64,000 bases of DNA, taken from [Mycobacterium] zoologicum (GTDB lineage: Bacteria > Actinomycetota > Actinomycetes > Mycobacteriales > Mycobacteriaceae). Positions 1 through 15,240 of this stretch are shown here, piece by piece. How positions within the stretch are numbered: the stretch's first letter is position 1; each line of letters begins with the position of its first letter. Under the pieces are notes generated by a model. That model was not told where the DNA came from. It did not search any database and saw only the letters and a program-made list of their open reading frames with translations. The stretch is from NCBI RefSeq assembly GCF_020172665.1, contig NZ_CP083985.1:959994-1023993 (forward strand). The letters run 5' to 3'. The translations under genes were made by a program, and so were the position numbers.

Positions 1-207
1 GCGGGCCATGAGGGCGCCCAGGCGTGTGTGTGCGACCTGACCACCCCGGTGGGGCTATCCCAGCCGACCGTATCGCACCACCTCAAAATCCTGGTCGAGG
101 CCGGCCTGCTGGAACGCACTCAGCGCGGCAAATGGGCCTACTACCGGTTAGTGCCCGCCACCCTGGATGTGCTCGGCGGGGTGTTCGCCCGCGCCAGCCA
201 CCGGTGA
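1..207 (+). CDS. ArsR-family metal-sensing regulator (3' part)
   Basis: This is the C-terminal 68 residues of an ArsR/SmtB winged-helix repressor whose start lies left of the window. The visible part begins before a CVCDL motif (residues 9-13 of the fragment). In ArsR proteins this motif at the start of helix alpha3 supplies the arsenite, antimonite or cadmium-binding cysteines. It continues into the recognition helix (SQPTVSHHLKIL) and the beta-wing (RGKWAYYRL), then stops shortly after, as the family usually does. It is convergent with ctpG. The metal cannot be fixed because the N-terminus is missing, but a soft-metal or arsenic sensor fits the surrounding metal genes. The family call is firm; the ligand is inference. 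Confidence 0.85.
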   Translation, partial: AGHEGAQACVCDLTTPVGLSQPTVSHHLKILVEAGLLERTQRGKWAYYRLVPATLDVLGGVFARASHR

Positions 208-236
208 CACGCATCCACTTCGCGGCTGAATGTGCG

Positions 237-277
237 CGGTTAGTCGACGGTTAGTCGGGGCTAAACAGGGCTAAACA
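237..277. repeat. Two adjacent tandem decamer pairs between arsR and ctpG
   Basis: CGGTTAGTCG occurs twice (237-246 and 248-257), followed directly by GGGCTAAACA twice (258-267 and 268-277). The second pair covers the ctpG stop codon at 271-273. The run sits where two convergent genes end. Its function is unknown; it may simply be slippage products. Confidence 0.5.
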
Positions 278-2637
278 CGCTTTGTCTTGGCGACTTGCAT
301 GCTGGCGCTAACTTCAGTCGCCCTGCGGCCGTCGGGTGTCTTGTGTTGCCCCGAGAGGGGTTTGAGGCGCCCGGCGCGCATACCGTTGGCGATGACGACC
401 ACTTCGGCAAGTTCGTGGACCAACACGACGGTAGCCAGGCCGAGGGTTCCGAACACCGCCAGCGGCATCAGCACTGTGATGATTGTCAGCGATAGCCCGA
501 CGTTTTGCAGCATGATCTGCCGGGAGCGTCGGGCGTGGTCTAGTGCTTGGGGCAGGTGACGCAGGTCTTGGCCCATCAGGGCGACGTCGGCGGTTTCGAT
601 CGCGACGTCGGTTCCCATGGCACCCATTGCGATTCCGAGGTCGGCGGCGGCTAGGGCAGGTGCATCGTTGACGCCGTCGCCGACCATCGCGGTGGGCCGC
701 TGGGCGCGCAGTTGTGCAATCAGGGCAGCCTTGTCTTCGGGGCGCAGTTCGGCATAAATGTGCTGGATTCCAGCTTGGGTGGCCAGCGCCGCAGCGGTGG
801 CAGGGTTGTCGCCGGTGAGCATCGCGACCTGGTAGCCGCGGTCGCGCAGTCCGGTGATGACCCCGGTGGCTTCTGGACGTAATTCGTCGCGGACGGCGAT
901 GGCACCGAGCAGCTGTCCACCGCGTTCGACGAGAACCGCTGTGGCCCCGGCTTGTTGCATGTGCGTCACGTGATCGGCAAGGTTGGCGGGGTCGATCCAG
1001 CCAGGCCGTCCCAGTCGGATGGCTTGCCCCTCGAGGTGGCCGGTCAGCCCAGCCCCAGGAACGGCATGCACGTCACTCGCGGCGGCCACCGGCGCTTGGG
1101 CAGCGGCGAGCACGGCCGCGGCCAGGGGGTGTTCACTGCGGGCCTCGAGCGCGGCCGCCACCGCCAGCACCTCCTCGCGGGTGGCGGCACTGGTGGTGGC
1201 GACGTCGATGACGACCGGCCGGTTGGCGGTCAACGTTCCGGTTTTGTCCAGGGCGACGGTGCCGATGGCGCCCAGGGCCTCCAGCGCGGCGCCGCCCTTG
1301 ATGAGTACGCCGAGTTTGGAAGCGGCGCCGATGCTCGCTACGACGGTGACGGGTACCGCGATGGCGAGCGCGCATGGGGAGGCTGCGACCAGCACCACCA
1401 GTGCGCGTTCGATCCAGACCACCGGGCTACCGAAGACGCTGCCGGCCCCGGCGATCAGCGCCCCGGTCATGATGATGCCGGGCACCAGCGGCCGCGCGAT
1501 GCGGTCGGCCAGGCGTTGGCTGGCGCCTTTGCGGGCTTGTTCGGCTTCCACGATGTGCACGATTCGCGCCAGCGAGTTGTCCTCAACGGTGGCGGTGACC
1601 TGAACCTGCAGCACTCCGGACCCGTTGATCGACCCGGCGAACACCTCATCACCGATTCCGGCCTCTACCGGCACCGATTCGCCGGTGATCGCCGAGATGT
1701 CTAGGGCGGTGTGCCCGGCACGAATAATGCCGTCGGTGGCCAGGCGTTCCCCGGCTTTGACAATCATCTGATCGCCGACGCGCAGTTCGGTTGTGGCGAT
1801 CTCGGTTTCGACACCGTCGCGCAGTACGGTGGCCTGGTCCGGCACCAGCGCCAGCAGGGCGCGCAGGCCGCGACGGGTGCGGGCCACCGCGTATTCCTCC
1901 AGGCCCTCGCTAACCGAGAACAAAAACGCCAGCATGGCGGCCTCACCGACCTGACCGAGTCCGACCGCGCCGAGCGCGGCGGTGGTCATCAACGTGCCGA
2001 CACCGAGGCGGCCCTCGGCCAGTCGCTTAGCGGTTGAAGGCACAAACGTCGAAGCACCCACCGCGAGCGCCACGACTTTCAATCCCAGTGCCACCGGCCC
2101 GAATGGAGTCAGCCACGCCGTCACCAGTGAGGCGCCCAGCATCACCCCGGAGAACGCGGCTCGCCGCAGCTTGGCGACGCCCCACAGCCGCTGCGACCCG
2201 GGCTGGCCGGTGTCGTGGTCACAGCAGCCGCCGCTTCCTTCCCCTGACCGTTGGGAAACCATGTCAGCGTGCCCACCTGATCGCGTCCGCGAGCTCCAGT
2301 CGAGAATTCGCTGCACCAGACCGGGGTTGCGCCCATCGACCGAGTGCGGTGCCCGCGGGGGCACCGACTTCGCAGGGATGTGCTCGGCGTCGGCGATCGC
2401 CGACAAGATGGCCGCGGTGTCGCAGCGCTCGGGCGAATACCAGACCACCACGGACGCCGTGCGGGGGTAGGCGTGGACGGTATCCACACCGGCCACCTTG
2501 GCGACCGTGTCCTCGATCGCGACAGCTCGCATCGCGTCGAAGTGAAACCAGGGCGCATGCACACGTATCCGTCCGGCGCCCGCGGACACTACGCTCAGTG
2601 CGGGCCCGGTATCGGTGGACGCTCCAGTAGTCTGCAC
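271..2637 (-). CDS. ctpG: Heavy-metal P1B-type ATPase CtpG
   Basis: This is a P-type ATPase of about 788 residues that should export soft metal cations such as Cd, Pb or Zn across the inner membrane. An N-terminal ferredoxin-like heavy-metal domain (about residues 15-80) has no CXXC; a CCDHD cluster follows near residue 135. Visible catalytic parts are the TGES actuator loop, the SPCALA transmembrane motif (SPC rather than the commoner CPC), DKTGT with the phosphorylated Asp near residue 464, and the GDGVNDAPAL hinge. The GTG at 2637 is chosen because GAGGAAGG lies just upstream; an in-frame start at 2682 lacks such a site. It follows the DUF1490 gene and cmtR on the same strand, as in the M. 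tuberculosis Rv1992c-Rv1994c operon, so CmtR control is expected. Identity is strong; exact metal specificity is inferred. Confidence 0.93.
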   Translation of the reverse strand: MQTTGASTDTGPALSVVSAGAGRIRVHAPWFHFDAMRAVAIEDTVAKVAGVDTVHAYPRTASVVVWYSPERCDTAAILSAIADAEHIPAKSVPPRAPHSVDGRNPGLVQRILDWSSRTRSGGHADMVSQRSGEGSGGCCDHDTGQPGSQRLWGVAKLRRAAFSGVMLGASLVTAWLTPFGPVALGLKVVALAVGASTFVPSTAKRLAEGRLGVGTLMTTAALGAVGLGQVGEAAMLAFLFSVSEGLEEYAVARTRRGLRALLALVPDQATVLRDGVETEIATTELRVGDQMIVKAGERLATDGIIRAGHTALDISAITGESVPVEAGIGDEVFAGSINGSGVLQVQVTATVEDNSLARIVHIVEAEQARKGASQRLADRIARPLVPGIIMTGALIAGAGSVFGSPVVWIERALVVLVAASPCALAIAVPVTVVASIGAASKLGVLIKGGAALEALGAIGTVALDKTGTLTANRPVVIDVATTSAATREEVLAVAAALEARSEHPLAAAVLAAAQAPVAAASDVHAVPGAGLTGHLEGQAIRLGRPGWIDPANLADHVTHMQQAGATAVLVERGGQLLGAIAVRDELRPEATGVITGLRDRGYQVAMLTGDNPATAAALATQAGIQHIYAELRPEDKAALIAQLRAQRPTAMVGDGVNDAPALAAADLGIAMGAMGTDVAIETADVALMGQDLRHLPQALDHARRSRQIMLQNVGLSLTIITVLMPLAVFGTLGLATVVLVHELAEVVVIANGMRAGRLKPLSGQHKTPDGRRATEVSASMQVAKTKRV

Positions 2638-2731
2638 GATCAACCTTCCTCGTGGATACGGGCGAACCGATTTTCGCCACAATCGGCCGTGGACTTACCC
2701 CGCCGCCGAGAAACCGGCGACGGCTCGTCAC

Positions 2732-3040
2732 TCAGCAGCAGTCGTCATCGTCGGTCTTGGCGCCAACCGGCGCAGCGGCATCCTCGCCGATGCGTTCGCG
2801 GGCCTCGGCGACCACGTCGGCGACTTTCAGCCGGGCCGACTCTGCTGCCACTTCTGCGCGTCGGGTTCCGCGCAGACCCCACTCGGTTGCGGTGACCGCG
2901 GCTCGGTGCACCGGAGCGGTTCCCACGGCCTTGCGCAGTATTTCGTAGGCGCTCACCCCGACCAGCCCGGTGAATACCGTCCCGGCCGCTCTAGCCATGA
3001 GTCCATGTGAAGCCACTGCTAACCCCTTCTGTTCGTTCAT
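2732..3040 (-). CDS. DUF1490 protein of the cmtR-ctpG operon (Rv1993c-like)
   Basis: This is a 102-residue protein with an alanine-rich N-terminal hydrophobic stretch (about residues 12-35), a basic amphipathic middle and an acidic metal-binding-looking tail ending DDDDCC. It lies between cmtR and ctpG on the same strand, matching Rv1993c in M. tuberculosis. The DUF1490 family is repeatedly paired with mycobacterial P-type ATPases. A role as a membrane-anchored metallochaperone feeding the pump is an inference from the context and the acidic Cys-Cys terminus. The ATG at 3040 is the only reasonable start. Confidence 0.88.
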   Translation of the reverse strand: MNEQKGLAVASHGLMARAAGTVFTGLVGVSAYEILRKAVGTAPVHRAAVTATEWGLRGTRRAEVAAESARLKVADVVAEARERIGEDAAAPVGAKTDDDDCC

Positions 3041-3090
3041 CTCACTGCGATTGAGCTACTGCGATCGTCGAGTTACCCGAGCAATCTCGG

Positions 3091-3447
3091 TCATCGACCA
3101 ACGGGTAGCTCGGCTGCTGCCGACATGACGTGCTCGTCGGCACAGGGTTGGTCGGTATCCACCGCGAGAACAACCTGGACCAATTCGCCCAAGGCCCGGG
3201 CGAGGTGGCTGTCGGCCAGCGCATAGCGAACCTGCCGACCCTCATAGGTGGCGATGACCAGCCCACAGCCCCGCAAACACGACAGGTGATTGGACACATT
3301 CGACCGCGTCAACTCCAGGTGTGCAGCCAGCTGGCCCGGATAGCACACCCCGTCTAGTAGGGCCACCAGAATCCGGCACCGTGTCGGGTCCGCCAGCGCC
3401 CGGCCCAGCCGGGCCAGCGCCGATTCCCGCCTCTCACACGTCAGCAT
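3091..3447 (-). CDS. cmtR: Cadmium/lead-sensing repressor CmtR
   Basis: This is an ArsR/SmtB winged-helix repressor of 118 residues, the same length as M. tuberculosis CmtR. The Cd/Pb ligands known for CmtR, Cys57, Cys61 and Cys102, all fall at the expected positions (helix LSCLRGCGL and tail QPC). The start MLTCE matches the M. tuberculosis protein as I recall it, so the ATG at 3447 is preferred over an in-frame upstream Met at 3537. It heads the cmtR-DUF1490-ctpG operon, and its promoter and operator region lies at 3451-3493. Metal binding should release the operator and derepress the operon. The C-terminal tail after Cys102 differs from the tuberculosis protein. Confidence 0.95.
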   Translation of the reverse strand: MLTCERRESALARLGRALADPTRCRILVALLDGVCYPGQLAAHLELTRSNVSNHLSCLRGCGLVIATYEGRQVRYALADSHLARALGELVQVVLAVDTDQPCADEHVMSAAAELPVGR

Positions 3448-3450
3448 GTA

Positions 3451-3493
3451 CCAAACAGTACAGTAGATGCTGATATAACAGCAAGGGCTGAAT
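3451..3493 (-). promoter_or_regulatory. cmtR promoter/operator, copy 1
   Basis: This AT-rich stretch lies immediately upstream of the cmtR ATG. It contains an imperfect palindrome, CTGTTATATCAG read on the minus strand (3470-3481, 10 of 12 positions symmetric). TATA-type repeats are what CmtR is known to bind. A diverged second copy lies at 5529-5571 in the same orientation, 34 of 43 positions identical. Confidence 0.6.
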
Positions 3494-3561
3494 TGTGTGG
3501 TACCGGTTCGCAAGCCCGCCGTCAGCCATGACATCACTCAGCTGGCCCGTCCCTGGAACGC

Positions 3562-4419
3562 TTATCGGCTGGTCGTGGGGTCCGCGCGATTTGCGTTGTG
3601 TGCGCGGCGTACGGCGCTGAGCTGTTGATCGTGGATCCACTGCTCGATGGGTCGGGTGTGGTCACGGCGCTGGGGAAACCGGCGTCCGATGCTGACGTAG
3701 ACCGCGTCGACTACGCGAGTTCGCGCGGGTGTTGCTGCCACGCTGTTCCAGATCCGGACGCGAGCATCGGCCAGGATGGCGGCCAAGGCGATCAGGTCGG
3801 GGTAGGCGGCGATATGCGTGTCAACGTCGTCGGGCGGCAACTCCGAGGGGCTTGTGCTGCGTGCCCACCAGCGGCGGATCCGCGCGGCATCCTTGACTGC
3901 GAACCGTGCGGTGCCGTTGTGACGGCGATGCAATCGGGCATGGTGCTGCGCGGCGGCCAGGACGAGGGGTGTGCAGTGCAGGTCGCGTTGATCTTCGAGG
4001 GTGTAGGTGCCCGGGCCGATCCATCGGCGGTGGCGGCGGCAGACGGTGGCGTAGTCGGGTAACCAGCAGTAGACAGGCTCGTAGACACCGCGGCGTGCCA
4101 TGCAGAGCCGGCAGGCGGGCCGCGCGTGGCGGCGTTGGCGGGTGGGGTCGCGGTCGCGGTTGGCCAGCCCGATGAGCCGGGCTTGAAGGGAGGCCACAGG
4201 CTGGCTGCTGACGGTTGCCAACCAGTCCGGCCGGGGACGGCAGATCGCAGGGCCGTCGGCCAGGTAGCGCCGCAGCTGCCGGGGTTCCAGGTGGTTAGCG
4301 TGCGCGAGGCGATCAAGATAGGACTGCACGGTTTCTGCGCGAAACGGTGTGACGGTTCGCGGTAACGGCGCCGTAGGCCCGATAGGCCACACCGGCCGGA
4401 TCGACGCCTCAGCTCGCAT
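3562..4419 (-). CDS. tniQ: TniQ/TnsD-family transposition protein
   Basis: This 285-residue protein has the TniQ N-terminal signature, a proline-rich start followed by an ETVQSYLDRLAHAN segment (about residues 29-42). A zinc ribbon follows (CRLCMARRG, then VCRRHRRWIG, about residues 102-133). TniQ proteins select target DNA for Tn7-, Tn5053- and Tn552-type transposons together with a TniB/TnsC ATPase. It starts inside the last codons of tniB (11-nt overlap), so the two are translationally coupled. The transposase gene of this element survives only as a 3' stub, so the module cannot move by itself. The gene stops about 70 bp upstream of the cmtR promoter on the same strand. Confidence 0.85.
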   Translation of the reverse strand: MRAEASIRPVWPIGPTAPLPRTVTPFRAETVQSYLDRLAHANHLEPRQLRRYLADGPAICRPRPDWLATVSSQPVASLQARLIGLANRDRDPTRQRRHARPACRLCMARRGVYEPVYCWLPDYATVCRRHRRWIGPGTYTLEDQRDLHCTPLVLAAAQHHARLHRRHNGTARFAVKDAARIRRWWARSTSPSELPPDDVDTHIAAYPDLIALAAILADARVRIWNSVAATPARTRVVDAVYVSIGRRFPQRRDHTRPIEQWIHDQQLSAVRRAHNANRADPTTSR

Positions 4420-5434
4420 GGCGTTGCGCCGATGTTTGGGCCGCGTAGTCGATGAGCACGGTGTCCATCAGATCTCGGGTGCCGCTCTCGGTTTCGTCGA
4501 GCATGCTGCGGATCGCCGCCGAGCGGATCAGGTGCGCCAGGCTTCCGATCATGCCGCCGGTGCGTTGATGCAGGTACTTGGCCTCGGCGACCAGCGTTCC
4601 GGCGTTGTGGCAGTGCAACCGCAGCGTGCCTTCCATCGCGGCCACCAACGACTTCCATTCCCCGGCATACGGGAACGGGCTGGTGTTGATCACCCCGCAA
4701 CGCCCGGCCAACTGGCGCCCGCGGGTGCCAGTGAACACCCCGGAGAGCTCCACGTCGATGCCCGCGTAAACGAAGGTGGCAGGTAGGTGTTCGGTGAAGT
4801 ACTTCAGGTGATCGGACAGTTCCTCGCCGGCGCGGGTATCGAGGTTGAGGTTGTGGATCTCGTCGACGATCACGATGTCGGTGCGGGCGTCGATGAGGAC
4901 CTGGCAGACGGCGTCGGCGATGTCGGTGACATTCATCCGCGGTTGCATCGGCGGAAGGCCCAGAAATCGGGCGAACTCCATCGCGAGTTTGCGCGGCGAG
5001 CCTTTCGGCGGCGCGGTCACGTAGACGACCGGGATCCGGGACTTGTCGGCGAATCGTGTCCGGATCCGCAGTTCGTGAAACCGGCCGAGCTGTTTGACCG
5101 CGGTGGTCTTCCCGGTCGCGGCCGCCCCGGAAATGATCAGCCCGCGCCGGGCGCCGATCTCGCGTTGGTTGAGCAGGGTCAACAGCCGGCCTTCGTTGGT
5201 GATGCGCTGGATCGCCGACGTGGTGACCACAACCAGTTCACTGTGGTGCGCTACACGGGCTTCGTTGTAGCTGGTCCGCTCGGTCTCCGACAGGGCGCTC
5301 CACTGCGCATCGGGCAGCAGGGTGAACTCGGGCGGGTCTGCATCAACGAAACGGCGCCAACCCTCCAGCGTGGTGGTGGGTTGGCGCCGGTCCTCGAGTT
5401 GGCTCACCGGCGCAAACGTGTTCACAGCCGCCAC
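4409..5434 (-). CDS. tniB: TniB/TnsC-like AAA ATPase of a transposon module
   Basis: This is a 341-residue AAA+ ATPase. The Walker A motif is GAAATGKTTAV (about residues 103-113) and the Walker B is DIVIVDEIHNL (about residues 185-195). TniB/TnsC proteins polymerise on target DNA and connect target selection by TniQ to the DDE transposase. The GTG start at 5434 overlaps the stop of the transposase remnant (5422-5424), the usual coupled order tniA-tniB-tniQ. The reading frame is intact with no visible lesion, although the upstream transposase has been cut away. The nearest promoter-like sequence is now the second copy of the cmtR promoter. Confidence 0.88.
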   Translation of the reverse strand: MAAVNTFAPVSQLEDRRQPTTTLEGWRRFVDADPPEFTLLPDAQWSALSETERTSYNEARVAHHSELVVVTTSAIQRITNEGRLLTLLNQREIGARRGLIISGAAATGKTTAVKQLGRFHELRIRTRFADKSRIPVVYVTAPPKGSPRKLAMEFARFLGLPPMQPRMNVTDIADAVCQVLIDARTDIVIVDEIHNLNLDTRAGEELSDHLKYFTEHLPATFVYAGIDVELSGVFTGTRGRQLAGRCGVINTSPFPYAGEWKSLVAAMEGTLRLHCHNAGTLVAEAKYLHQRTGGMIGSLAHLIRSAAIRSMLDETESGTRDLMDTVLIDYAAQTSAQRHAS

Positions 5435-5528
5435 GATTCAGCCTCCTTGCGTGCATCGAACACCGGAAGTGGAATGACCTGCGCGATCTCGATGTCCTCG
5501 CCGTCCTCCCCGCTGCCTGGTGGCTGGA
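5422..5528 (-). pseudogene. 3' stub of a TniA/MuA-type transposase
   Basis: In the frame ending at the TGA 5422-5424, the minus strand encodes about 33 residues including GEDIEIAQVIPLPVFDA. This resembles the extreme C-terminus of TniA-type integrases that precede tniB. Upstream the frame meets a stop at about 5544, inside the duplicated cmtR-promoter sequence, so the N-terminal DDE catalytic domain is gone. The junction coincides with the right edge of the promoter duplication. The assignment rests on position, overlap with tniB and the terminal motif. Confidence 0.6.
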
Positions 5529-5571
5529 CCAAATAGTACAGTCAACGCTGATATAATGGCAGGAGTTGAAT
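5529..5571 (-). promoter_or_regulatory. Diverged second copy of the cmtR promoter/operator
   Basis: Ungapped comparison with 3451-3493 gives 34 identical bases of 43, including the GCTGATATAA core and the AGTACAGT block. Similarity ends two bases before where the cmtR start codon would be, and the transposase stub begins there. It therefore looks like a promoter that has lost its own gene and now points into the tni genes. Confidence 0.6.
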
Positions 5572-5593
5572 CACCCTCCGATGCTCACGAGCC

Positions 5594-5748
5594 CGGATTC
5601 TGGCCGCCTACGGCGGCGTCTTCGTTGCCGGTTCGCCGGCCTGGGGCCGTGCTCCTCGATGGGTTGCGGCCCGGCCACTGGGATGTGATTGGCGCCCTGT
5701 CTGCCTGGTCGGCGTTGCCGTGATCGTGTATGCGATGCGGCCACTAAC
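5594..5748 (+). pseudogene. Frameshifted C-terminal remnant of a UPF0060 (YnfA) membrane protein
   Basis: Successive segments in two plus-strand frames rebuild the UPF0060 C-terminus. [15 protein letters not shown] is read in one frame (from 5603), [16 protein letters not shown] in the next (about 5650-5700), then [15 protein letters not shown] back in the first. UPF0060/YnfA proteins are four-helix small membrane proteins of the SMR-like type. They occur beside ArsR and arsenic or cadmium genes in mycobacteria (for example Rv2639c). Two compensating indels and the missing N-terminus make this a pseudogene fragment. Confidence 0.65.
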
Positions 5749-6007
5749 TTTCGGCCGCAACCGCCCGTCGTAGCGCGGCAAATATCAACTCGCGGGTGGG
5801 CAGGTCCAACCGACAGAAATCCCCTGTCGGCGGCTGATCGGGACACATCACATCGGTCCCGTCGATCAGCACCGACGGTGACGGAAACGGGCCGACGCGC
5901 TCAACGATCGCCGTATCGATCCCGAGTACGGCCAGACAGTCGACCAGCAATTCATGGGCCGCTGCCGCATTTGGGCAGTCTGAGCTGCTCAGAATCTCAA
6001 CACGCAT
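5744..6007 (-). CDS. Small thioredoxin-fold protein of the mycobacterial mercury-associated type
   Basis: This 87-residue protein begins with a beta strand and SSSDCPN, a thioredoxin-like active-site position with a single Cys. The mid-segment [13 protein letters not shown] and a CRLDLPTRE segment follow. Proteins with this pattern are usually annotated as alkylmercury lyase or 'DF family' in mycobacterial mercury operons, although they are much shorter than true MerB. I cannot confirm lyase activity. The ATG at 6007 has GGAGGG seven bases upstream, which decides it over the in-frame ATG at 6025. No merA or merR is visible nearby. Its 3' end overlaps the YnfA remnant on the other strand. Confidence 0.6.
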
Positions 6008-6049
6008 TCCACGGCCCTCCAACATCCTCGGCAGCGGCACCTCACGTGA

Positions 6050-6326
6050 GTCACTTTCCGCGACCCGCTGACAGTTGTAGCCCGGGCTCGACACGCCGGG
6101 TAGCTCGGCCGTCGCGGGTACGTCGTGGCAGGCGCAGTCCGCGGCGGCGAGCTCGAGGCGGCTCGCCTTCGATCCCGCGGCCGCAAAGTGCGCCGAGACC
6201 TCTTCCAAAAAAGGCGATTTCCCTTTCCTGCCGGGCAACGGTCGCCTGCGGCCGCACCAATTCCGCGCGCTCCTGCACCGAACGCTGCTGTCCACGACCG
6301 GAATCAGTCCGTTGAGCGTCGACAGC
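6050..6326 (-). pseudogene. Degraded IS3-family transposase fragment
   Basis: One minus-strand frame gives an OrfA-like coiled-coil end (AELVRPQATVARQEREIAF, about 6266-6210). The neighbouring frame gives FLEEVSAHFAAAG (6211-6173), then LELAAADCACHDV and LPGVSSPGYNCQR (to about 6065). This reproduces the IS3 pattern in which OrfA ends in a leucine-zipper and FFA motif and OrfB begins with an LLGVSRSGYY-type segment. Neither frame continues into a DDE domain, so only the OrfA/OrfB junction survives. Confidence 0.55.
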
Positions 6327-6474
6327 CCCGCCGACACCGCCTGAACCGGACTCCGGGCCGAATGGTCGCAAACTGCCCAGAACACAACGGACCACGCGTT
6401 CCCAAATCGACGCGATCACGTTTCCACGGCTTCGCGCCTACCACTGTCTACCAGGAGCTCGAACTTTTTAGACA

Positions 6475-6519
6475 CGTCCCCGGGGGCGGGGGACCTGTGT
6501 GAATAGGTGTTGAAAACTC
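6475..6519. repeat. Small repeat, copy A (GC hairpin plus conserved tail)
   Basis: A GTCCCC...GGGGAC inverted repeat is followed by a conserved tail including GAATAGGTGTTGAAAAC. The 31 bases at 6489-6519 are identical to 12246-12276. The left arm of the longer palindrome seen in copy B is not preserved here. Apart from the IS3 remnant and this repeat, I see no gene between 6008 and 6617. Confidence 0.75.
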
Positions 6520-6617
6520 TAGTGGATGACCTGCGGGGGCCTGGTTCGCGGTGGTGGTGGCGCGCCGGGGACTGATCTTTGGTGTTGCCAGGGTTGAGTA
6601 TGGGCCTGATGAGAAGC

Positions 6618-9476
6618 CTAGAGGGGGTGTGACTGGCCGGTGGGCAGGGGCCTGTCGTGGACGACTATCGGCCACCAGAACCAGCGGCCGGCCAGCGTCG
6701 CTATCGCCGGTATGACGAATGAGCGCACCAGCAGCGTGTCGAGCAGCAGCCCGAGTCCCACGGTGGTCCCGATTTGGGCGATGTTGTGGGCGTAGCCGGC
6801 CAGCATCGCCAGCATGGTGAACCCGAAGACAAGCCCAGCGGTGGTCACCACGCCGCCGGTGTTGACCATCGACCGGATGATGCCGGTCTTGATCCCGGCC
6901 GGTATCTCGTCTTTGAAGCGCGCGACCAGCAGCATGTTGTAGTCGGCACCCACGGCCACCAGAAACACGAAGGCGATCGGTGCCACCGACCAGTGCAACG
7001 GGTTACCGATGATGTCCTGCCAGACGAACGCCGCCAGCCCCAGTGCGGACAGGTAGGACAATGCCACCGTGCCGATCACGGCGATCGCCGCGACCAGGCT
7101 GCGCAGCAGGATCAGGATCACGCAGAACACGAAGGCGAACGCGGCCACCACGCTGGTGGTGAAGTCCTCCTTGGTGAACGCCTCGATGTTGAGCAGGGTG
7201 CCGCCCGGGCCGCCGATGCTGACGGTGCTGCCTTCCAGCGACGTGCCTTTCACCGCCTGCAGCGACGTGGGAATGATCTTGGCGCTCAGGGCCATCGCGT
7301 CGCTGCTGAACCCTTCCATGTGGGGGGTGACAAGCATCCGCGTCGCCTTCCCGTCTGCGGAGAAGAAGTACGTCATCGCGTCCTTGAACAACGGATTGTC
7401 GAAGGCTTGGCTCGGCAGGAAGAACGAGGAGTTGGGGTCGCCCGCATCGAAGTTGTCACGGAGTTCCGCGGTGAATTGCGTGAGCTCCGAGATCTGCGGG
7501 ATCAGCACCATCAGGGTGTCCTGCAGCGGCGTCGTCACCGCGTCGACCTGATCGACGAAGTCGCTCAGCGTCGCCAACTGGCCGGACAGTACGGGCAGCG
7601 CCTGGTCGGCCGCGCGGGTCCCGTCGATCACCTCCGCGATCAAGCCGTCGAAGCGGTGCAGGTCGTCGAAGATCGAGAAGCCGTCGAGCGCGGCCCGGCA
7701 GTACTCGTTATCGCGGCACGGCGGGATCGTGTCCACGAAGTCGACGGCGGGTTGAGCGAGATCGCGCAGGGTATCCAGCTTTTCGACCACGCCGCTCAGT
7801 GCGGTGCGCAGTTCGGCGGCTCCACCGCGGATCTGGCCCAGACCTCGGCTGCCCGTCGCCTGCGCCTGCTCCAAGCCGCGGATCGCGACCCTCAGCTGTC
7901 CGACCCGCCCCGACAGCGCGCTGAGATCATCGGCCCGGTGCGTCAACAGGTCGGTCACCTGGGTCAGCCGCTGACCGATGTAGCCCGCCTGCGAGGTCAG
8001 CGTCCCCTGTTTGAGCGGGGCGCCCAGCGGTCGGATGATGCCTTGGACATTGTTGACCCCCGGGATCGACAGGATCGCGTTGGTCAGCTTCGCCAGGGCG
8101 ATCATGTCCGACGAGTTACGCATGTCGTGATCGGACTCGACCAGAAAGACACTGGGCGACATGATGTTCGGCGGCAGGTGTCGGTCGGCGGCGGCGTAGC
8201 CCAGGTTGGCCGGCGAGTCGCTCGGCTGCGCGATCCGTTCGTTGTAGCTGGGTTGGTAGCTCGGCAACACCAGCAGCGCGGGGGCCAGCAACGCGAGGCT
8301 TCCCACCAGAACCGGCCCCGGCCACCGCACCACATGGGTGGCGATGCGCCGCCACCGCCGCAGCGAGCCCTGCTCGCGAGGTTCGAAGAACCCGAACCGG
8401 CTCCCCACGGCCAGTGTGGCCGGCCCCAGCGTCAGCGCCGCGGCCAATGTCACCAGCACCGCGATGGTGCACGGCAGCCCCGACGTGCTGAAGATGGCCA
8501 GGCGCGTAAAGGCCATACAGGCGGTCGCACCTGCGACGGTCATGCCCGAGGCGATGATGATGTGCTGCACTCCGGCCAGCGCGGTGTAGTAGGCGTCGGC
8601 GGGATCTTCACCGGCGCGGCGCGCCTCCTGATATCTGCCCAGCAGGAAGATGCCGTAGTCGATACCGGCACCGAGCACGATGACGGCAAGAAGCGCTGAG
8701 GCGAATATGGACACCCCGATGACGCGGTGCTCACCGAGCAGCGCTACCAGGGGCCGCCCGACACCGAGCCCGGCGCCCGCCACCAGCAGCGGCATCGACA
8801 CCGTGATCGGTGACCGATAGACCCACAGCAGAATGGCGCCGACGAGGAGACCACAGGAGATCAGCAGCAGCAGGATCGAGTCGTTGATCGACACGAGCTC
8901 GTCGTTGACCACCGCCGACGGCCCGGTCAGGTGTGCGCTGAGCCCATCGGGCGGTGGGGATTCGGCGATGATGTCCCGAACGGCCTGGGTGGACTCCATC
9001 GCCAGTGCGGTGCCCATGTTGCCCGCCAGGTTGAGCAGAACGTAGGCGACTTTGCCGTCGGCGCTTTCGTTGGCGGGCGCGAACTGCGGATCGGACCACA
9101 GGTCCATCGAGGAGTTGACGTGCTTTTTGTCCTGGTCGATTCGCTCGAGAACCGTCGAATAGTACTGGTGCGCTCCGTCTCCCAGCGGCTCGTCGCCCTC
9201 GATGAGCAGGTAGACGAAGTTGTTGGTTCCGGCACCGCCGAAGTAATCGCCCATCTTGGCGATGGCCTGCACGGAAGCCGCGTCGTCGGGCAGGAATGAC
9301 CGGGCGTGCCCTTTGATCACGGTCTCGAGCTGCGGGACAGCGAGATTTAATACCCCCGCGAGCGCGAGCCACGAGACGATGACCGGCAGCGCGAAGACGT
9401 ACAGCAGCCGGGCCGGCAGTGGCCGTCCCGGCCCGGCCTGGTCGCCGTTGGATCGCAATATCGTCGGCGTGTTCAC
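6618..9476 (-). CDS. MmpL-family RND transporter
   Basis: This 952-residue inner-membrane transporter of the mycobacterial RND/MmpL type exports lipids or siderophores, or acts in drug efflux, using proton motive force. A first helix (about residues 25-45) is followed by a large periplasmic loop, a five-helix bundle containing GIDYGIFLLGRYQEA, a second large loop with coiled-coil character, and a second bundle containing GADYNMLLVARFKDE. These two Asp-Tyr motifs form the proton relay in MmpL3-type proteins. The GTG at 9476 is chosen because it overlaps the mmpS stop (GTGA), giving the normal 950-residue length; an in-frame upstream extension to 9635 lies inside mmpS. It forms an mmpS-mmpL operon with a TetR-type regulator divergent upstream. 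The substrate is unknown. Confidence 0.95.
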   Translation of the reverse strand: MNTPTILRSNGDQAGPGRPLPARLLYVFALPVIVSWLALAGVLNLAVPQLETVIKGHARSFLPDDAASVQAIAKMGDYFGGAGTNNFVYLLIEGDEPLGDGAHQYYSTVLERIDQDKKHVNSSMDLWSDPQFAPANESADGKVAYVLLNLAGNMGTALAMESTQAVRDIIAESPPPDGLSAHLTGPSAVVNDELVSINDSILLLLISCGLLVGAILLWVYRSPITVSMPLLVAGAGLGVGRPLVALLGEHRVIGVSIFASALLAVIVLGAGIDYGIFLLGRYQEARRAGEDPADAYYTALAGVQHIIIASGMTVAGATACMAFTRLAIFSTSGLPCTIAVLVTLAAALTLGPATLAVGSRFGFFEPREQGSLRRWRRIATHVVRWPGPVLVGSLALLAPALLVLPSYQPSYNERIAQPSDSPANLGYAAADRHLPPNIMSPSVFLVESDHDMRNSSDMIALAKLTNAILSIPGVNNVQGIIRPLGAPLKQGTLTSQAGYIGQRLTQVTDLLTHRADDLSALSGRVGQLRVAIRGLEQAQATGSRGLGQIRGGAAELRTALSGVVEKLDTLRDLAQPAVDFVDTIPPCRDNEYCRAALDGFSIFDDLHRFDGLIAEVIDGTRAADQALPVLSGQLATLSDFVDQVDAVTTPLQDTLMVLIPQISELTQFTAELRDNFDAGDPNSSFFLPSQAFDNPLFKDAMTYFFSADGKATRMLVTPHMEGFSSDAMALSAKIIPTSLQAVKGTSLEGSTVSIGGPGGTLLNIEAFTKEDFTTSVVAAFAFVFCVILILLRSLVAAIAVIGTVALSYLSALGLAAFVWQDIIGNPLHWSVAPIAFVFLVAVGADYNMLLVARFKDEIPAGIKTGIIRSMVNTGGVVTTAGLVFGFTMLAMLAGYAHNIAQIGTTVGLGLLLDTLLVRSFVIPAIATLAGRWFWWPIVVHDRPLPTGQSHPL

Positions 9477-9880
9477 GAGACCACGACCTCGCAGGACACC
9501 GCGGTCGAGTCGGAAGCCTGTTCGTCGCGAATCCGCCCGTCGACGGTGACACGGCAGGACAGCGGTGCCGCGTCGGCCTGGGCGATCACGCCGCTGGAGA
9601 CCGTGAGCTGCCGCGTTCGCAGCGTGGCGAGCCACGGCAGAGTGCTCGACACCTCACGCACCGTGCCGTCGGCGTCGAGATACGACGCGGACACGACGGT
9701 ACCGACGGGGCCGTCGAGGCGGTACTCGATGACTTTCTCCCGGAGTTTCCCCGCCGACGGCGGGCGGGCCGAATGCCCGATCGCAGGGTCGGGAATATCA
9801 CTGAGCCGCAGGTGGGCGATGTATACCCCGGCAATGCACAGGGTTGCGGCGACAACCAGATGAACCCACGCCTGACGCAT
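9473..9880 (-). CDS. MmpS-family accessory protein
   Basis: This is a 135-residue membrane-anchored periplasmic protein with one N-terminal helix (about residues 7-23) and a beta-rich domain typical of MmpS. Such proteins assist the cognate MmpL in export. The stop overlaps the mmpL start by 4 nt, so translation is coupled. The ATG at 9880 gives the usual MmpS length. Two Cys residues in the C-terminal half (SCRV and SCEVV) could form a disulphide, as seen in this family. The gene is divergent from the TetR-HxlR regulator, with an operator-like sequence at 9935-9953 in the gap. Confidence 0.9.
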   Translation of the reverse strand: MRQAWVHLVVAATLCIAGVYIAHLRLSDIPDPAIGHSARPPSAGKLREKVIEYRLDGPVGTVVSASYLDADGTVREVSSTLPWLATLRTRQLTVSSGVIAQADAAPLSCRVTVDGRIRDEQASDSTAVSCEVVVS

Positions 9881-9934
9881 GTGCCCTGCCTCCTCATCCG
9901 TCGACCTTTACCCGATACCAGCGGTACCGAAATT

Positions 9935-9953
9935 AATTGAACGGTCGGTCATT
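9935..9953. promoter_or_regulatory. TetR-type operator candidate upstream of mmpS
   Basis: AATTGAACGGTCGGTCAT lies in the 190-bp gap between mmpS and the divergent TetR-HxlR gene. A near copy (16 of 18 identical) is found at 12135-12152 upstream of the lipocalin-like gene. TGAACGNTCGGT-like sequences are common TetR operators in mycobacteria. A shared site suggests that both units belong to one small regulon. Confidence 0.6.
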
Positions 9954-10070
9954 TGATAGCGAGTGCTTGTAACGTCACAGCGCCCCAACAGTGCGTTTCA
10001 CGTCACATCCATTGATATATCCGCAGATGGATCGGGGGTTTTCGGTTGGGGAACCTGGTAGAAGGGACAG

Positions 10071-11036
10071 GTGGCGAGAGCTGGAACCAAAGGCGTCCCC
10101 CGAGCTCAGCGTGAACAGCAGATCCTCGACGCAGCGTGCCGGGAGTTCGCGCGTGCCGGGTACGCCGGCATGTCGCTTGCCGCTGTCGCTGCCGGGGCCG
10201 ATATCTCCAAACCGATGATCCTGGCGTACTTCGGATCCAAAGAACAGCTCTATATCGCCTGCCTAAAGCGCGCCAGCGACAAGGTCGGGGACCAGATCGA
10301 GGCCGCCATGGGGCGGGTACCGCCGACACTGGCGCTGCCGCAGGAGGTTTTCCGCGCCATCTTCCACGCCTTGGATCCGCGACCTGCCGACTGGCTCGTC
10401 ATCTGGGATCAGACCCTGCCGGAGGGCGGTGACGCACTCGCTGCCGCGAAGACCGCGCGTTCGAGGCTGGTCGAACTCGCCGGACAGGGGGTCGCGGCGA
10501 TCGGGGAGGCGCCGGCCGACCGGGCGATGCAACTGCGCGAGCGCGAGGATCTCGCGGTGCTCACCCAGGGGTGGATGGGCATGGTGGGCGCCATCGTCAA
10601 TTGGTGGATTCGCCATCCCGACCAAACCGCTGACCAGATGGCCGAACGGGCCGGCCGGGCCCTCGCCGTCGTGGCCGGCGCCGGCCTGTCCGACGAGTGG
10701 ACGGCTGACGCTGCGCCGGCCACCCCGGCGCCGGGGGTACGGGTGCGCGGCTCGGAGACCGGGCGGCCGCTGATGGCGGCATTCGACCTGTTCGGCCGGC
10801 GCTGGGCGATACTGATTGTCTGGCAACTACGAACGGAGGCAAAGAGCTTCACGCAGCTGCAAGAAGATACCGACGTCACGCCCGGGGTGCTGCGAATGCG
10901 GCTACAAGAACTGACCGATGCACGCATCGTGCGAGACCGAAACGCGCAGTACTCCCTCACCGCGCTGGGTCGCAGCCTGCTCGTCGCGCTGGCCCCGTTG
11001 GAGTTATGGGCCAAGGCGTGGTCGGCCAAGCGTTGA
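10071..11036 (+). CDS. TetR-HxlR fusion transcriptional regulator
   Basis: This 321-residue regulator has two DNA-binding modules. Residues about 13-60 are a TetR helix-turn-helix (MSLAAVAAGADISKPMILAYF), followed by a helical ligand-binding region to about 215. A proline/alanine-rich linker leads to a C-terminal winged helix (about residues 232-320: FDLFGRRWAILIVWQL, then TPGVLRMRLQEL) of the HxlR/MarR-like type. Ordinary TetR repressors are near 200 residues. The GTG at 10071 has GAAGGGA eight bases upstream. It is divergent from mmpS and probably represses the mmpS-mmpL pair and the lipocalin-like gene through the shared operator. What the second DNA-binding domain does is unknown. Confidence 0.88.
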   Translation: MARAGTKGVPRAQREQQILDAACREFARAGYAGMSLAAVAAGADISKPMILAYFGSKEQLYIACLKRASDKVGDQIEAAMGRVPPTLALPQEVFRAIFHALDPRPADWLVIWDQTLPEGGDALAAAKTARSRLVELAGQGVAAIGEAPADRAMQLREREDLAVLTQGWMGMVGAIVNWWIRHPDQTADQMAERAGRALAVVAGAGLSDEWTADAAPATPAPGVRVRGSETGRPLMAAFDLFGRRWAILIVWQLRTEAKSFTQLQEDTDVTPGVLRMRLQELTDARIVRDRNAQYSLTALGRSLLVALAPLELWAKAWSAKR

Positions 11037-11041
11037 CCGCG

Positions 11042-12112
11042 CTAAGGGCCGGTGGCCGGCCGCACGTCCACCCACTCGATGTATCCGGACCCTTCCACCG
11101 GTTCGCCCCGGAACTTTGCGGTGTAGCTGTAGGCGCCCGAATATCCGCGGCCATGCCCGAAACGCATCGGTGAATCGACCGCGCCATCGACCGTGAGAAT
11201 CTCCTGGCCGCGGTCGCGGACGACCCACCGCAGGCCGGCCGGCAGCCGCATCCGGCGGCCCCAGCGATCGACCGCGGGTTCATCCTGATATGTGACATCG
11301 AAATCGACGTCATCGAAGACGGTGGTCTCGCCGCCGAGGACTCGCAGGTGCGCGAGCAAGCAGGCGGTGTGCCCCCGAGCGCTGACCTTGGTCAGCAGCA
11401 ACTGTGTTCGATCATCCAATTGCAGAACCTGGTAGGTGAAGAAGTCCACAGGTAATTTCAGCCGGGCAGGCACCGGTTTTCGGCTCAGCCCCTGATGCCC
11501 GGCGCATCGCGCGTACTCGAACGTGCCGAGCCCGCGGATCGCGGTCTCACCGGCGCCATCGGTGATCGTTCCCCGGTATGGCGCCAGCAGACTCAAGTGC
11601 TGGTAGATCGGCGTGTCGACGAAGAACGACGCCTGTCGTGTCACGGTCAGGTCCAGATCGAGCGAGAACGTGGCGTATCTGCCGCGAACCCTGACCTCGG
11701 GCAGTCGAATATCCAGCTCAAGGTCATCGCCCCAGCGCAGCATTGAGCCGTCGTCGGCGAACGCACACTCGGTCGCGGCGTCGTACGCCCGATAGTGATG
11801 CTGATCGGCGTACGCGGTCGACGAGAACACCGTGCTGGTGTTTCGGACGTCCGGGGCGGCGAGCGCGTCGTTGTCGAAGATCTCCGTTCCGGTGGCACCC
11901 AGCAGTGTCATGGTGTTGATGTACCGATACGGGTCCGGCAGCCGCGGAACGAAAACACCGAAGTGGGTCCACGCCCACAACCGTGAGTCCAGATGCGGTC
12001 GCATCCGGTAGCCGGCCGGCAGCGCGCGACACGAATTCGCCATCCGCCGGTCGACCGGCGGCGTGACGCGCAGCACGGTCGCCGCCAACGCGCGCGACAC
12101 CACTCGATCCAT
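11042..12112 (-). CDS. Lipocalin-like (DUF6670/AttH-type) protein of unknown function
   Basis: This 356-residue soluble-looking, beta-rich protein has no signal peptide. It starts with a region of basic helices, then has strands ending in a GSGYIEWVDVR segment. That reminds me of the C-terminal strand of AttH/CrtC-type double-lipocalin proteins and of mycobacterial DUF6670 proteins. This is a family impression, not a confirmed assignment. The ATG at 12112 has GGAGG eight bases upstream and is preferred over the in-frame TTG at 12136. The gene is convergent with the TetR-HxlR gene (5-bp gap), and an operator-like sequence lies just upstream. Lipid binding would fit an MmpL partner but is inference. 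Confidence 0.6.
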   Translation of the reverse strand: MDRVVSRALAATVLRVTPPVDRRMANSCRALPAGYRMRPHLDSRLWAWTHFGVFVPRLPDPYRYINTMTLLGATGTEIFDNDALAAPDVRNTSTVFSSTAYADQHHYRAYDAATECAFADDGSMLRWGDDLELDIRLPEVRVRGRYATFSLDLDLTVTRQASFFVDTPIYQHLSLLAPYRGTITDGAGETAIRGLGTFEYARCAGHQGLSRKPVPARLKLPVDFFTYQVLQLDDRTQLLLTKVSARGHTACLLAHLRVLGGETTVFDDVDFDVTYQDEPAVDRWGRRMRLPAGLRWVVRDRGQEILTVDGAVDSPMRFGHGRGYSGAYSYTAKFRGEPVEGSGYIEWVDVRPATGP

Positions 12113-12134
12113 GATCGTACCTCCCGGGGCATGC

Positions 12135-12152
12135 AATTGAACGATCGGTAAT
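12135..12152. promoter_or_regulatory. Second copy of the TetR-type operator candidate
   Basis: AATTGAACGATCGGTAAT matches 16 of 18 bases of the sequence at 9935-9952. It lies 23 bp upstream of the chosen start of the lipocalin-like gene, where a bound repressor would block transcription. Confidence 0.6.
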
Positions 12153-12208
12153 ATCGCCGTCTCGTCAGACTACAACCACACGAGACAAGCGCGGACAGTC
12201 ATCCGTTA

Positions 12209-12276
12209 GTTTTCTCAGCACCTATCGGTCCCCCGCCCCCGGGACGGGGACCTGTGTGAATAGGTGTTGAAAACTC
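12209..12276. repeat. Small palindromic repeat, copy B
   Basis: The outer arms are a GTTTTCTCAGCACCTAT-type sequence (12209-12225) and its near reverse complement ATAGGTGTTGAAAAC (12260-12274). The inner arms GGTCCCC and GGGGACC enclose a GC-rich loop. The last 31 bases are identical to copy A at 6489-6519. The structure resembles a miniature inverted-repeat element or a mobile terminator. The surrounding gap 12113-12343 holds no gene. Confidence 0.7.
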
Positions 12277-12343
12277 GTGTGGATGCCGGCGGCCGCCGGT
12301 GCGCGGTCGTGGGGCGCGTTGCCTGCCGGCTTTCGGTGGTCGG

Positions 12344-12871
12344 TCAGCCCGCAGACGGCCCGGTCTGGCTGAAACGCGCAGCAATCCGCGGATTGTCCAG
12401 CAGGTGCTCCGGGAACCCGGGACCTGCGTGGACGTGGGTCTGCTCGGACGCCACGGCACCACCGCAGTGCGCGCACACCACGACGGCCTCCAGGTCGTGG
12501 CCGCACGGCTCATGGCTCAGGATCACCGGCAGTTCTTTGCCGTGATTCATCCACCGGTCGCCCCAGGTCTTCATCGCGGCCATGACGGGGAAGAAGTCAC
12601 GGCCGGATTCGGTGAGCAGGTATTCATGCCGGACCGGCTCGGTCTGGTATTCGCGGCGCTCGAGCAGGCCGGCGTCGACGAGTGCCCGCAGTCGGTCGGT
12701 CAGGGTGTTGCGGGCGATGCCCAGGGAGGCGATGAACGCGTCGAACCTGGTTTCGCCGTAGAAGGCCTCACGCAGCACGAGCAGCGTCCAGCCGTCACCG
12801 AGCAGGTCGGCGGTGCGCGCGATGGTGCAGGGCCATCTGGCGAACGAGGTCGTTTTCACGTTGATGAGCAT
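12344..12871 (-). CDS. HxlR-family transcriptional regulator with C-terminal zinc-binding tail
   Basis: This 175-residue protein has an HxlR winged helix (about residues 15-105: LLGDGWTLLVLREAF, RFDAFIASLGIARNTLTDRL) followed by a tail containing a Cys-His cluster, PCGHDLEAVVVCAHCGG. That cluster could bind a metal or sense thiol stress, as described for some HxlR proteins. The ATG at 12871 begins within the divergent promoter region shared with the molybdopterin oxidoreductase at 12974, its likely target. A pair of inverted AGTTGC half-sites lies in the gap between the two genes. It reads convergently toward repeat copy B. Confidence 0.88.
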   Translation of the reverse strand: MLINVKTTSFARWPCTIARTADLLGDGWTLLVLREAFYGETRFDAFIASLGIARNTLTDRLRALVDAGLLERREYQTEPVRHEYLLTESGRDFFPVMAAMKTWGDRWMNHGKELPVILSHEPCGHDLEAVVVCAHCGGAVASEQTHVHAGPGFPEHLLDNPRIAARFSQTGPSAG

Positions 12872-12950
12872 ATCAGTTGCGTGTTGAGACCGACTTGCGG
12901 CGACGACGGCGACGGGCTACTGTCCGGGTCAGTCTTAATATGCAACTACG
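12868..12950. promoter_or_regulatory. Divergent control region with inverted AGTTGC/GCAACT half-sites
   Basis: GCATATCAGTTGC (12868-12880) and ATATGCAACTACG (12938-12950) are inverted relatives placed at each end of the gap between the HxlR gene and the oxidoreductase. The pair could be HxlR binding sites. No mapped promoter is known. Confidence 0.4.
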
Positions 12951-12973
12951 TCAGCTCACCGGAGGAGCGAGGC

Positions 12974-15240
<2,267 letters not shown>

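Follow-up and report, generated by a model that had tools for sequence, protein, structure and literature searches.

The tnsC-tniQ gene pair in the stretch of mycobacterial chromosome analysed here is very probably the relic of a Tn7-like metal transposon, in which the tip of tnsB became joined, by deletion or rearrangement, to a second promoter of the cmtR type, and which now persists as the passenger of a genomic island. The stretch (the window; 64,000 nucleotides) corresponds to G000:C1:959994-1023993, G000 being the genome that carries it. In the order of transcription, on the minus strand, the locus comprises the promoter copy p2, a stub of tnsB, tnsC, tniQ, the promoter p1, cmtR, a DUF1490/pacL gene and the gene of a ctpG-like P1B-ATPase (Table 1). 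On our best reading, the relic would thereby happen to be arranged like a TnsC-TniQ operon under a metal switch.

Table 1. Features of the locus (window coordinates)
Feature	Position	Strand	Evidence
ctpG-like P1B-ATPase for heavy metals, part of the ancestral cargo; uncertain start codon	271..2682	-	TIGR01512 (cadmium family), 508.6 bits
pacL-type DUF1490 protein, cargo	2732..3040	-	PF07371, 127.5 bits
cmtR, Cd/Pb-sensing ArsR/SmtB repressor	3091..3447	-	NCBIfam equivalog NF047906 CmtR, 184 bits (cut-off 150)
p1, native cmtR promoter/operator, 3' of tniQ	3447..3493	-	position as in intact cmtR-bearing copies
tniQ, open frame of 285 aa	3562..4419	-	PF06527, 28.9 bits (cut-off 27)
tnsC, TniB-type AAA+ ATPase, open frame of 341 aa	4409..5434	-	PF05621, 63.8 bits
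tnsB 3' stub, 33 codons and stop	5422..5524	-	tblastn, residues 688-718 of 720 (measured on L003)
p2, putative cmtR-type promoter/operator without cmtR, aimed at tnsC	5525..5571	-	sequence comparison with native cmtR promoters
ynfA fragment, 5'-truncated	5590..5735	+	matches YnfA-annotated features in plasmids and many genomes
small hypothetical gene, adjoining the left end in the L083 element	5744..6007	-	matches L083 1658-1921

The remaining transposition genes

The Pfam families TniB and TniQ are both matched above their cut-offs, and the TnsC and TniQ members of the Tn7-like gene set are present. TnsC matches the PDB chains of VchTnsC and ShTnsC (E about 5e-5), and TniQ yielded no relevant sequence match in the PDB. 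As compared to intact copies of the element, tnsC is 96% identical to the second copy in G000, and TniQ is 78% identical (measured on L003, the locus with the same element and junction in genome G205). The preliminary description had recognized the loss of the DDE transposase, TnsB, of which about 31 C-terminal residues are left (L003, same junction); homology of the window stops at 5524, and tnsA is absent in L003. It had named the genes tniA'-tniB-tniQ, whereas they correspond to tnsB'-tnsC-tniQ of a TnsA-containing element. It had also taken tniB and tniQ to be intact, which holds for the window, where both frames are open, and for two of the three genomes carrying the junction, but not for G093, whose tniQ contains a 1-bp insertion near window position 4139, unless this is a sequencing error.

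An AAGGAGG ribosome site in front of the GTG of tnsC is preserved within the tnsB stub. A transcript starting at p2 would plausibly yield TnsC and, via the overlap of the two genes, TniQ. Among the cargo genes, the ctpG-like gene follows in the same order as in intact elements, and DUF1490 proteins have been described as PacL partners of metal ATPases (PMC13043812).

Intact relatives

Ten intact copies that bear cmtR (L004-L009, L083-L085 and L114; several are near-identical, hence not ten events) have the order tnsA-tnsB-tnsC-tniQ, followed by p1, cmtR, pacL (DUF1490) and ctpG. L083-L085 are from M. intracellulare and M. avium plasmids, and L114 is the second copy within G000. Since p1 and cmtR lie behind tniQ in all ten copies, p1 belongs to the metal cargo of the transposon and is not a flank. 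The module had previously been placed between two copies of the cmtR promoter: the bracketing as such is correct, but the copy next to tniQ is the promoter of the element's own cargo. Farther relatives carry different cargo.

Two plasmids of M. intracellulare DSM 44623 (L083 and L084) share a block of ~11.97 kb that is 100% identical and surrounded by unrelated flanks, the shared element spanning 1392-13356. The ends of this element begin TGTCCGTTG, and the insertions at L083/L084 show perfect 5-bp target duplications, ACTTC and CCGGC, so that they possess the two ends and the 5-bp duplication of Tn7-like transposons. That two plasmids of a single strain carry identical copies with different 5-bp duplications suggests recent mobility of this element. 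In the second copy of G000 (L114/L115, at 2.298-2.317 Mb), tnsA, tnsB, tnsC and tniQ are open, and the outer ends have no matching 5-bp duplication. A second, internal left-type end is located within the larger element (L083 5290, L114 13688), which suggests a nested smaller element, reaching from ctpG to tnsA, that shares the right end.

Our survey covered 85 loci (L003-L087, the genome part being the best 80 of 97 relatives), 77 of which include tnsC together with 2.2 kb or more of upstream sequence, many being near-copies of one another. In 74 of these 77, the locus contains tnsA, and 500 or more of the 720 tnsB residues lie upstream; the three exceptions are L003, which is the element of the window itself, L076 and L081. 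A plasmid search with window 3000-6500 matched 134 records, none over 80% of the query. Judged by the presence of TnsA and by the 5-bp target duplications of two relatives, the element is Tn7-like (TnsABC+TniQ) and not of the Tn5053 type. Tn5053/Tn402 transposons are built from tniA-tniB-tniQ and are not known to carry TnsA. They have the Pfam names TniB and TniQ in common with the element described here, but the intact relatives of the latter carry tnsA, which sets it apart.

Breakpoint and extent of the remnant

Window positions 306-5524 match L083 at 85.7% DNA identity, and this match stops at the base before p2. Homology resumes at 5590: positions 5590-6320 match the other side of the element, adjoining its left end, at 77.8%, and comprise a 5'-truncated ynfA, whose breakpoint is nearly the same as in L083, as well as the small hypothetical gene. 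Thus, p2 and 18 further bases lie between two element-derived pieces.

The exact end motif is absent from window positions 1-14000, a search that a right end diverged from the exact motif would escape. A left-type end is located at G000:952588 (L113 8589) and points toward the window. From there to the tip of tnsB, the remnant measures ~12.9 kb; it has this one left-type end in place of two ends with a 5-bp target duplication, and is devoid of tnsA, most of tnsB and, by the exact motif, the right end. It would not be expected to move on its own.

A cmtR-type promoter without cmtR

The promoters p1 and p2 form an ungapped direct repeat with 37 of 47 identical bases; the 34 identities counted before in a 43-base version of this repeat are reproduced, and the repeat extends beyond them. 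When both strands of the 64-kb window were screened for 47-mers sharing at least 26 bases with p1, the only sites found were p1 itself, p2 and the opposite strand of p1 (31/47). The latter match (window 3458-3504, plus strand) makes p1 quasi-palindromic, which may reflect paired operator sites. CmtR is known to bind its own upstream region (PMC7863910), and this paper cites a multiple-operator study.

A profile built from eight native cmtR promoters, p1 among them, ranks p2 second in the window with 53.0 bits, behind p1 with 79.9 bits, which is part of the profile. The third-best site (24.2 bits) is probably the opposite strand of p1, and the fourth scores -12.8 bits. The score of p2 lies inside the leave-one-out range of the natives (28.7-76.8 bits), and p2 keeps 17 of the 20 columns that are invariant across the eight promoters. 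Its core reaches 39.8 bits as compared to 39.3-47.3 bits for the natives, and its upstream half 10.1 bits as compared to 24.6-30.9 bits in seven of the eight natives and 8.9 bits in L137, the natives being favoured in both comparisons by their inclusion in the profile. By these scores, p2 appears to possess the core of a native cmtR promoter combined with a weak upstream half.

With at most one mismatch, the promoter pattern occurs at 17 sites in 11 genomes among 297 genus genomes, which are a sample of a larger group. Fourteen of these sites directly precede cmtR; the other three are p2 in the three genomes carrying the junction. At the fourteen sites, the start codon follows three bases past the core, whereas in p2 only the A of this ATG is left, followed by transposase sequence. 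This agrees with the preliminary description, according to which the right-hand copy stops short of a cmtR start codon, enters the transposase stub and is directed into the two genes identified here as tnsC and tniQ. A sigma-70 consensus scan of positions 3300-5800 made no call at p1 or p2 and is uninformative for both. As a promoter of this type upstream of tnsA would mean a metal-controlled transposon, we searched the intact copies accordingly, allowing up to 13/47 mismatches (up to 17 for L114), and found none: each intact copy has one p1-type promoter, located in front of cmtR, and none upstream of tnsA in the available sequence.

Transfer on an island and selection on tnsC and tniQ

The identical junction is present in three genomes of three species (G000, G093 and G205/L003). 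The surrounding block, G000:C1:934945-966484 (~31.5 kb), matches G093 at 99.994% identity; G205 shares 30.6 kb or more of it with G000 at 99.97%, the left edge being bounded in this case by the stretch compared. Chromosomal matches flanking the block are 78-87% identical. Such a near-identical block within diverged flanks points to one recent transfer, that is, the shared junction reflects co-transfer of an island in a single event and not independent retention. The right edge of the island is at window ~6487-6515. Near its left edge, a frame that by eye resembles a tyrosine recombinase was seen (L176 11674-12774). A 50-base direct repeat, 88% identical, occurs at window 6479-6528 and 12236-12285; its first copy coincides with the right edge of the island, and the repeat is possibly related to an attachment site.

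For tnsC, dN/dS relative to L004 is 0.078, as compared to 0.071 and 0.107 for the intact pairs L004-L010 and L004-L012, respectively. The corresponding values for tniQ are 0.391, and 0.390 (L004-L012) and 0.315 (L004-L010) for the intact pairs; the gene slices were taken by tblastn coordinates and are approximate, and the L012 tniQ slice overruns a stop. The ratios, low for tnsC and moderate for tniQ, resemble those of the intact pairs and give no sign of relaxation, a comparison of little power since the deletion is not datable.

Origin of the fusion

We propose that the ancestor was a Tn7-like heavy-metal transposon (TnsABC+TniQ) with cmtR-pacL-ctpG as its cargo. A deletion or rearrangement would have removed the right end, tnsA and all of tnsB except its 3' tip, and would have brought this tip next to p2, a second promoter of the cmtR type whose own cmtR gene had gone. 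What remains would now be carried passively on the ~31.5-kb island, where p2 may transcribe tnsC-tniQ and may be repressed by the CmtR of the same island. The seemingly designed symmetry of promoter, module and promoter would then be explained as a deletion scar. On this reading, the fusion would be accidental, p2 may be active and under CmtR control, and the two proteins would have no selected role. The preserved ribosome site of tnsC and promoter core are tidy for an accident, which counts against this explanation, as do the open frames of tnsC and tniQ in two of the three carriers and their lack of any sign of relaxation. The native promoters closest to p2 are p1 and L135, with 37 of 47 bases shared. 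No source of p2 emerged from 396 genus genomes (E<=10, best two candidates per genome) or from plasmids, and no source locus for the 18 bases between p2 and the truncated ynfA was found in the genus genomes or plasmids searched. The best outside match to p2, in G387 (E 1.5e-4), was judged to be due to chance; it covers only window 5555-5596 and lies in a 2506-codon frame.

As a variant of the deletion scenario, p2 may have been copied in as filler from a cmtR promoter when a break underwent error-prone repair, rather than having belonged to a neighbouring cmtR operon that was deleted. Its location between two element-derived pieces, with just 18 unassigned bases beyond, and the fruitless search for its source would fit such an event, but p2 has 10/47 differences from p1 and 13/47 from the second copy's promoter, that is, no known local template fits, and we regard this variant as rather unlikely. 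Both repeats could instead derive from the target, if a cmtR promoter or the space between two cmtR operons had been the site of insertion of the element. Although p1 and p2 are direct repeats that closely bracket the module, this is scarcely credible in view of the internal location of p1-cmtR, behind tniQ, in each of the ten intact copies that bear cmtR, of target duplications that are 5 bp long, and of the ten differences between p1 and p2. Thus, where the preliminary description envisaged that an insertion at a second cmtR-like locus had decayed, the decay is borne out and the insertion geometry is not, the left promoter being the element's own. Moreover, intact transposase genes and true ends within unrelated flanks, one half of what that description had named as evidence against itself, are present in L083/L084. 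A second similar element in the genome could also confuse assembly; however, G000, G093 and G205/L003 all have the same junction, and we assign next to no probability to an assembly artefact.

It is likewise improbable, in our judgement, that the module has been retained for its function, the other possibility raised in the preliminary description, in which case Cd/Pb would free p2 from CmtR, and TnsC-TniQ would serve the host or act in trans on the 2.30-Mb copy, be it by blocking the intact copy, by competing for TnsB or by biasing its target choice. This would be consistent with a p2 core within the native range that keeps most invariant positions, with open tnsA, tnsB, tnsC and tniQ in the second copy of the same genome, with the low dN/dS of tnsC and with its preserved ribosome site. 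However, the three carriers share one transferred block and hence represent one event, tniQ of G093 contains the 1-bp insertion, the upstream half of p2 is weak, and TniQ shares only 78% identity with its intact counterpart. If p2 is active, TnsC-TniQ made in response to Cd/Pb could meet TnsA/TnsB of the 2.30-Mb copy, whose four genes are open but whose outer ends lack a matching 5-bp duplication. That the relic acts as a metal-switched regulator, with Cd/Pb freeing p2 and TnsC-TniQ altering when or where the intact sibling moves its cargo, nevertheless appears very improbable. A deletion or rearrangement of a Tn7-like metal transposon remains our preferred explanation.

Relation to known systems and other incomplete loci

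The elements at L083/L084 and L114/L115 have the order tnsC-tniQ-PcmtR-cmtR-DUF1490-ctpG in common with the window, but differ from it in keeping tnsA, tnsB and both ends and in lacking p2. According to Benler 2021 (PMC8649781), none of the transposons in an Actinobacteria-dominated Tn7-like clade had been characterised by experiment, and genes for metal detoxification are abundant among the cargo of Tn7-like elements. The element described here has Tn7-type core genes, as this clade does, and cargo of the metal detoxification kind common in Tn7-like elements; it may belong to the clade.

In M. tuberculosis, cmtR-pacL2-ctpG constitutes a cadmium-inducible operon (PMC13043812). The three kinds of genes are the same here; unlike the M. 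tuberculosis operon, they reside on a transposon remnant with an extra promoter copy upstream. The locus and its relatives show that a metal operon of the M. tuberculosis kind, cmtR-pacL-ctpG, travels as the cargo of a Tn7-like transposon in mycobacteria. Should p2 turn out to be active, metal control of TnsC-TniQ could be studied here in a simple setting. Judged by titles and abstract openings, no description of the junction was found in the open-access literature searched.

Two further incomplete loci were observed. In a metal-cargo copy at L140 (G124:C122:723000-738000), the match to the window ends within tniQ (window 3957) and the stretch has no tnsC match, making it a second, differently truncated remnant. 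At L081 (5057-7913), where no tnsA or tnsB was found, a Hoyosella tnsC-tniQ pair has an IS3-like frame, as seen by eye, upstream of it and represents an independent headless pair.
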